This document shows positions 19,171 to 19,674 of a stretch of 40,153 bases of DNA, piece by piece. Below the pieces are notes generated by a model, which saw nothing but the letters and a program-made list of their open reading frames with translations, was not told the DNA's origin and made no database searches. Location of the stretch: the NCBI GenBank assembly GCA_902615835.1, contig CACMQL010000015.1:1-40153 (forward strand), given 5' to 3'. The position numbers and the translations under genes are program-made. Numbering within the stretch: the stretch's first letter is position 1; every line of letters starts with the position of its first letter. The stretch is from an uncultured Verrucomicrobiota bacterium (GTDB taxonomy: Bacteria; Verrucomicrobiota; Verrucomicrobiia; Opitutales; Seribacteraceae).

Positions 19171-19205
19171 TTAACAAATAAGTCAGGCAGCCAGTTTGCC
19201 CGACT
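19171..19205 (-). terminator. Intrinsic terminator overlapping the stop of the 80-aa ORF
   Basis: On the minus strand AGTCGGGCA pairs with TGCCTGACT (9 bp with one G-U) around a 7-nt loop, followed by TATTTGTT. The stem contains the last codons and the stop of the ORF at 19183-19425. Confidence 0.65.
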
Positions 19206-19425
19206 GGGAAAGAATATCCTTAAGGATTTGATCCCTCAAATGCCTGGCTTCACTAAGATTTCTTGTTTTAAGAGAATGCCGAATTCTTTCAGCTGTTACG
19301 GGAGTTGGGTAGACAGTGTAGTGAATCCACCATGTACCATTGTTGTTCCAAAGATGGTGATTCAAGTTAGAATCGTCTATGCGAATAGCCGATTCTTCTG
19401 TTTGAACTAATAATGCATTATTCAT
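19183..19425 (-). CDS. 80-aa stand-alone protein resembling the N-terminal arm domain of tyrosine recombinases
   Basis: The protein has 80 residues from the ATG at 19425, chosen because a strong Shine-Dalgarno (AAAGGA, 9 nt spacing) precedes it. The centre reads NNNGTWWIHYTVYP and then HSLKTRNLSEARHLRDQIL. This is the pattern of the beta-sheet plus helix that opens many phage-type integrases (basic strands, then 'SLxTRxxxEARxxRD'). No core-binding or catalytic (R-H-R-Y) domain follows: the ORF ends inside its own terminator hairpin and the next 220 nt show no recombinase remnant. It may be a domesticated DNA-binding domain or the leftover of a mobile element. The canonical Shine-Dalgarno and the GC-rich leader set it apart from its neighbours. 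Confidence 0.6.
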   Translation of the reverse strand: MNNALLVQTEESAIRIDDSNLNHHLWNNNGTWWIHYTVYPTPVTAERIRHSLKTRNLSEARHLRDQILKDILSQSGKLAA

Positions 19426-19433
19426 TTTGCGTA

Positions 19434-19440
19434 TTCCTTT
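19434..19440 (-). promoter_or_regulatory. Shine-Dalgarno of the 80-aa ORF
   Basis: AAAGGAA on the minus strand lies 9 nt before the ATG at 19425. It is the only textbook ribosome-binding site I found ahead of a gene in this window and it decides the start of this ORF. Confidence 0.65.
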
Positions 19441-19466
19441 CGGTTTATACGCTTCACTCGCAAATT

Positions 19467-19550
19467 GAGCGAGGAGAGCGCTGTTTTCGGTTGTGCCAGG
19501 ACCGCGCATCCCGGAAAAGACCCTGTACCACCGTAGGAGCTCTCGCACTC
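19467..19550 (-). ncRNA. Candidate structured 5' leader RNA upstream of the 80-aa ORF
   Basis: An 84-nt, 62% GC segment (hand count) in AT-rich surroundings. On the minus strand it folds into a long interrupted hairpin with nested stems GAGTG/CGCTC, GAGAGC/GCTCTC, CGGT/ACCG, CAGGG/TCCTG and CCG/CGG, separated by short internal loops. Two pairs are G-U wobbles that become C-A mismatches on the plus strand, so the minus strand is the one that folds. The element ends 41 nt before the start codon. A TATAGT at 19614-19619 could be a -10 box. It matches no riboswitch class I know. Function is unknown; a cis-regulatory leader or small RNA is likely. Confidence 0.45.
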
Positions 19551-19557
19551 GGTTGGT

Positions 19558-19574
19558 AACCCAATGGTTGGGTT
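19558..19574. repeat. Short perfect hairpin next to the structured leader
   Basis: AACCCAA-TGG-TTGGGTT is a 7-bp perfect inverted repeat with a 3-nt loop, 8 nt outside the long hairpin at 19467-19550. There is no T-run on either side, so it is probably part of the same leader structure or an operator rather than a terminator. Confidence 0.45.
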
Positions 19575-19674
19575 GTCTATGGATGCAACAAATGGCGTGG
19601 TTTAAAGAACGAAACTATACTCTGACCTTAGGAGGCTGAATTTGCAACTCTTTCTTGTGTCATAAACCTTGGAT

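Follow-up and report, generated by a model that had tools for sequence, protein, structure and literature searches.

The minus strand of the window, the 40,153-nucleotide stretch of DNA from an uncultured Verrucomicrobiota bacterium analysed here, carries at positions 19587-19473 a conserved RNA unit made up of the stems P1, P2, P3, P4 and P5 together with a pseudoknot between the P3 loop and the 3' tail. This RNA is likely to be a diverged aptamer of the SAM-I/SAM-IV superfamily. It lies in the 5' leader of a small gene, whose product is a putative arm-domain protein and whose expression it would repress in response to the predicted ligand, S-adenosylmethionine (SAM). The features of the locus, all on the minus strand, are as follows.

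19657-19666, minus: TTTATGACAC box, a DNA element that lies ahead of the promoter and is kept in 64 of 93 distinct upstream stretches
19642-19647, minus: TTGCAA, a -35-like box that follows the TATGACAC box by 9 nt; TTGC is conserved at that spacing
19582-19586, minus: P1 5' strand GCAUC, pairing with 19510-19506
19575-19581, minus: J1/2 CAUAGAC, exceeding the canonical AAGAG by about 2 nt (RF01725 alignment and alignment A2)
19558-19574, minus: P2, unbroken hairpin AACCCAA-CCA-UUGGGUU, with double changes at five of five counted pairs (own versus swapped strands, z -11.3)
19528-19556, minus: P3 with the SAM-clan core CCAACC ... GGUGG; core invariant in 25 of 25 rows, inner pairs covarying
19513-19522, minus: P4, weak in the window and stronger in relatives (for example GGUUUAAUAAACC), from covariation
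19506-19510, minus: P1 3' strand GAUGC, from the near-group alignment
19488-19504, minus: P5, hairpin CGGU ... ACCG, 3' of P1; invariant in the near group, with five of six pairs covarying in the Opitutaceae group
19474-19482, minus: 3' tail AGCGCUCUC, the pseudoknot strand, able to pair with the P3 loop GAGAGC (19544-19539)
19457-19473, minus: hairpin CUCGC-UCAAUUU-GCGAG, expression platform, seen in the sequence
19429-19452, minus: hairpin GCGUAU...AUACGC with the Shine-Dalgarno AAAGGA (19440-19435) in its loop, seen in the sequence
19183-19425, minus: 80-aa ORF, a putative stand-alone domain resembling the integrase arm-type DNA-binding domain (conserved protein family, codon-position pattern, AlphaFold2)
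19181-19205, minus: terminator-like hairpin at the stop codon, from a program scan

By DNA search the region 19640-19430 has homologues in 24 of 91 relatives, nearly always as a single copy per genome and within three genera of one family. Across the 25 rows of the near-group alignment, pairing holds for 92.5% of cells, whereas slid structures are only 32-39% paired. Double changes affect 17 pairs, against 7.0 by shuffling, and 42 cells, against 10.2, a level that none of 500 shuffles reached. Thirteen Opitutaceae leaders, aligned separately, are 94.1% paired with 33 double-change cells against 10.7 (0 of 500 shuffles). Such shuffle figures overstate significance for related sequences; nevertheless, both alignments and the slide controls point the same way. 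When own strands are compared with swapped strands among 23 representatives that are less than 85% alike, the z scores are -11.3 for P2, -6.3 for P4, -5.3 for P5 and -3.8 for the pseudoknot. In the near group five of the six pseudoknot pairs have had both sides changed at least once, and across families the P3 loop and the tail change together, as in AGGAGU/ACUCCU, GGGAGCG/CGCUCCC, GGAGA/UCUCC and GGGA/UCCC. The AUC/GAU of P1 and the CAACC/GGUG of P3, on the other hand, show no change in any row of either alignment (25 of 25 and 13 of 13).

The original prediction had drawn a GC-rich hairpin of five nested stems at 19467-19550. The segment does lie on the minus strand with the ATG (19425) of the 80-codon ORF 41 nt downstream, and the GC enrichment is real (0.607 in 19472-19555 versus about 0.35-0.45 in the surrounding DNA). 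As a functional fold, however, the isolated hairpin was rejected, the 84 nt folding no better than shuffles (minimum free energy -27.9 versus -27.24 +/- 3.24 kcal/mol, z -0.20). The plus-strand fold is likewise unremarkable (z -0.47) and, because both strands fold like shuffles, the G-U pairs that had been invoked in favour of the minus strand carry no weight alone; the strand was nevertheless called rightly on other grounds, namely conservation with the downstream ORF, covariation and a full-length SAM-I/IV match on that strand. The limits need to be redrawn, since the conserved RNA begins 37 nt further 5' with the P1 strand GCAUC (19586-19582), and so does the hairpin, whose outer stem corresponds to the pseudoknot helix between 3' tail and P3 loop and whose inner stems cut across P3, P4, P1 and P5. 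The broader proposal, a functional cis-regulatory RNA ahead of the 80-codon ORF, has good support from conservation and covariation, and the prediction's own test, a search for homologues with compensatory changes, returned them in two separate alignments.

To which class, then, does the RNA belong? The earlier statement that it matches none holds at the gathering score, where no Rfam family is found, and fails below it, where a full-length match reveals the SAM-I/IV superfamily. At the E-value level the Rfam scan gives one sensible match, to SAM-I/IV (RF01725), which spans the whole model at 19591-19472 (minus) with 26.9 bits (E 0.034 for 501 bases, 0.014 for 211 bases) against a gathering cut-off of 41.1 bits. 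The same family is found sub-threshold at the homologous place in 19 of 25 homologous loci (25.8-32.6 bits); the gathering score is reached neither in the window nor in its relatives (25-33 bits), and no SAM riboswitch was detected at that level in 14 loci carrying the small gene. Models built from the leaders themselves link them across families. Model R3, constructed from Opitutaceae leaders only, picks the window element (19472-19587, minus) as the single clear match in 11 kb (E 1.7e-4, next best 0.41), and also finds the canonical SAM-I/IV of locus L036, which scores above the Rfam cut-off and lies ahead of an S-methyltransferase-like gene (E 8.2e-6). Model R1, built from the window's family and close relatives, finds small-gene leaders in the families f10, f13, f18 and f22. 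The canonical SAM-I/IV copies of the order (L036 and L037) precede S-methyltransferase-like genes, SAM-I (RF00162) has no match in 103 genomes of the order, and the literature search returned no paper on SAM-I/SAM-IV in Verrucomicrobia or on DUF6538. The SAM-I/IV plan has a one-piece P2, a P4 and no PK-1, and SAM-IV has P5 and PK-2, in which the P3 loop pairs with the 3' end (PMC6890682). In the window-type RNA the lack of PK-1 is judged from the short P2 loops only. The RNA may thus be described as a diverged SAM-I/IV type that would function as these riboswitches do; it is not counted as a strict member, since its scores lie below the Rfam cut-off, J1/2 is not the canonical one and SAM binding is a prediction.

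The manner in which such an aptamer could control its gene differs between leaders. Among about 83 true leaders, from which four Akkermansia chance cores had been set aside, 29 contain a run of 7-10 nt able to pair with P1/J1-2, in most cases within or next to a terminator; for instance, the P1/J1-2 strand GCAUCAGG has its exact complement CCUGAUGC downstream. Terminator-like leaders number 36 in all, and in leaders L025-L027 an intrinsic terminator is inserted at the position of the CUCGC/GCGAG hairpin. A P1 complement borne by the terminator suggests a ligand-off switch, in which a P1 held by the ligand would prevent the complement from trapping the P1 strand as an antiterminator, such that the terminator would form. 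In the window's genus there is no terminator; the CUCGC/GCGAG and Shine-Dalgarno hairpins precede the ATG, and control there may act at translation, with the Shine-Dalgarno sequence held within a hairpin. This can be suggested only cautiously because that hairpin covaries little: the consensus fold has only three pairs there, with a single compensatory change.

The small gene is not the only one to lie under this RNA. In G034:C25 (L341:7290-2309) and G036:C282 (L343:6339-1355) the box and the RNA head genes for a MoxR AAA ATPase, a VWA (CoxE-like) protein and a SAM-synthetase-like protein on one strand, and in G656:C24 (L342:411-5902) the order is RNA, small protein, MoxR, VWA and SAM-synthetase-like. 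The RNA-headed MoxR-VWA-SAM-synthetase-like operon is found in two genera. The synthetase-like proteins reach 124-153 bits, below the metK cut-off of 309.4, and their N and C domains pass the Pfam cut-offs. A decayed copy (G029:C399, L344) has the RNA leading directly into the synthetase-like gene. SAM-clan RNAs also occur before ORFs of 253 aa (L042:3121-3007, minus), 100 aa (L034:2051-2160) and 178 aa (L342:8380-8255, minus), and the last of these has the TATGACAC box too.

What might the ligand be, and what would it do? SAM is favoured because the A-U pairs of P1 and the CAACC/GGUG core of P3 are invariant; the A-U, U-A and C-G pairs of P1 that adjoin the pocket are unchanged in 25 of 25 rows. 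The operon with the SAM-synthetase-like gene provides circumstantial evidence in the same direction. When abundant, SAM would bind between P1 and P3 and stabilise P1, whereupon the expression platform would adopt its off form, with the small protein being produced when SAM is scarce. SAM would most likely act as a repressor of the small protein. Against this reading stand the sub-threshold Rfam scores, the altered J1/2, a downstream gene that is no known methionine gene and the weak support for the expression platform of the window's genus. In SAM-I it is J1/2 that contacts the ligand. Here it is CAUAGAC in the window or of an AGGA type elsewhere, compared with AAGAG in the canonical class, and it departs from the canonical form in both sequence and length in all leaders of the small gene. 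It is conceivable, if rather unlikely, that the SAM-clan fold serves the same gene through the same P1 switch with a pocket that now accommodates SAH, another nucleoside or an analogue of SAM. The remodelled junction may hint at this, and so may a second target so diverged (124-153 bits versus 309 for metK) that it might make another compound; yet the elements with which SAM-I holds its ligand, the P3 core and the P1 A-U pairs, do not vary here.

The small gene of the window is a real one, as its changes by codon position (202/106/383) are dominated by the third position and the motif NHHLWNNNGTWW..T.ER.R.SL.T...AR.RRD is kept across the phylum, and the hairpin at its stop codon makes it probably monocistronic. 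It occurs in 147 of the 372 genomes searched in the order and in 94 of 387 across the phylum, with named loci from Opitutaceae, Puniceicoccaceae, Akkermansia, Chthoniobacter and Lentisphaera relatives. The RNA lies ahead of the same 75-85-aa protein in at least 15 families (f1, f10, f13, f18, f19, f22, f36, f37, f40, f45, f53, f71, f73, f75 and f80, with one copy in f59), at a P1-to-ATG distance of 130-262 nt, and in f47 it is recognised by the core motif only. The small gene lacks the RNA in f4, in the Akkermansia-like f29 and in the majority of f59 copies; these groups provide the negative controls for the models. Gene neighbourhoods conserved beyond genus level, which could have hinted at function, were not found, and a search of phage records for the origin of the gene gave no match; four loci lie in viral contigs. 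Some leaders have other arrangements. At L095:1520-2589 (G164) the RNA is followed by a terminator and then by a two-gene unit (a 220-aa ORF and the small protein), and L125 in f4 has a different structured leader with a terminator and no SAM-clan core, maybe another riboswitch class. The Lentisphaera relatives L068 and L077 and Akkermansia loci such as L081 and L087 have the small gene behind other inverted-repeat leaders with no riboswitch, the repeats being centred around GACAGTTAATTTTTGGAGAA or forming a GC-rich hairpin after rpmB.

The small protein is probably a DNA-binding protein, judging from its predicted structure. AlphaFold2 gives a β-β-β-α fold over residues 25-77 (mean pLDDT 76.6), whose best structural neighbour is 3rmp, a P4-like integrase arm-type DNA-binding domain (Z 4.6, 2.1 Å over 50 residues, 26% identity), a weak likeness given that unrelated rows reach Z 4.3. 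It agrees with the profile match to DUF6538 (PF20172), itself below cut-off (18.9 versus 27 bits), and with marginal profile matches in integrase-sized ORFs of 350-460 aa. Foldseek gave no significant match, and a search of solved structures by sequence gave only short matches (WRAP-T designs). The catalytic recombinase domain is absent, with the ORF ending at 80 aa and family members measuring 68-105 aa.

Upstream of the RNA, the TTTATGACAC box also precedes RNA-less copies of the gene in f4, f39, f40, f59 and f75; in the f4 copies L125 and L132-L134 it lies some 300-390 nt upstream. In other families the TTGC box is about 19-20 nt from it, and the two spacings, 9 and about 19-20 nt, differ by one helical turn, which would be in keeping with the behaviour of activator sites. 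The box is possibly bound by the small protein itself. In G682/G656 the arrangement is TTGC-17-TATAAA/TATACA, while a simple scan of the window found no promoter; its -10-like TATAGT (19619-19614) makes only a tentative promoter because it is 22 nt from the -35-like box. A methionine regulon based on the box, suggested by its seeming recurrence before ahcY, metH and metY, was dropped: the ahcY and metH matches are start-codon context (TT-ATG-ACA-CAA, encoding MTQ; 70 ahcY upstream regions inspected), the metY match is an upstream stop codon, and genomes with and without the small protein show no difference.

The near-constant company of RNA and protein, together with a box that accompanies even RNA-less copies of the gene, might suggest an autoregulatory leader in which the small protein recognises either its own transcript or the TTTATGACAC box, the SAM-like shape being a relic that no longer responds to ligand. 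This is very improbable given that the protein occurs without such an RNA in Akkermansia, f4 and most Lentisphaera copies, that the RNA precedes MoxR genes without the small protein (L341 and L343), and that the core residues are kept. A chance hairpin in a GC-rich patch, for which only the shuffle-like folding of the isolated 84 nt could be cited, is refuted by the covariation, and conservation and the cross-family model matches also oppose it.

A riboswitch of the SAM-I/IV type would enlarge the best-studied superfamily of riboswitches by a sizeable branch that databases do not show, in a phylum where a search for SAM-I in 103 genomes of the order found none. Its association with an orphan protein family, conserved in 15 or more families, offers a testable ligand and an assay for the role of the protein. 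A further lead is the operon with the diverged SAM-synthetase gene that this RNA heads. More tentatively, and with the balance leaning against it, the whole could constitute a phylum-wide, two-step SAM circuit, in which a database-invisible riboswitch with a remodelled J1/2 governs a DNA-binding microprotein regulator and the same RNA controls the MoxR-VWA-SAM-synthetase-paralogue operon.

Set beside known systems, the RNA shares with SAM-I/IV (RF01725; Weinberg et al. 2010, PMC2864571) the AUC/GAU of P1, an unbroken P2, the P3 core CAACC/GGUG, P4, a P5 located 3' of P1, the pseudoknot between P3 loop and 3' tail, the lack of a P2-loop pseudoknot and a covariance match over the full length. 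It differs in scoring 22-36 bits against the cut-off of 41.1, in a J1/2 of CAUAGAC or AGGA type, in having the gene of a small, putative arm-domain protein, not a methionine gene, as its target, and in expression platforms that reuse the P1 sequence. With SAM-I (RF00162) it has in common the ligand-binding core, P4 and the logic of P1, antiterminator and terminator, whereas it has no P2 kink-turn or P2-loop pseudoknot and does possess P5 and the 3'-tail pseudoknot. The protein, in turn, resembles the integrase arm-type domain and DUF6538 (PF20172; PDB 3rmp and 3jtz) in its predicted β-β-β-α fold, its W/R-rich strand motif and the SL.T....AR..RD start of its helix, but is distinguished from them as a stand-alone protein of 75-85 aa that has no catalytic domain, falls below the DUF6538 cut-off and is found phylum-wide.
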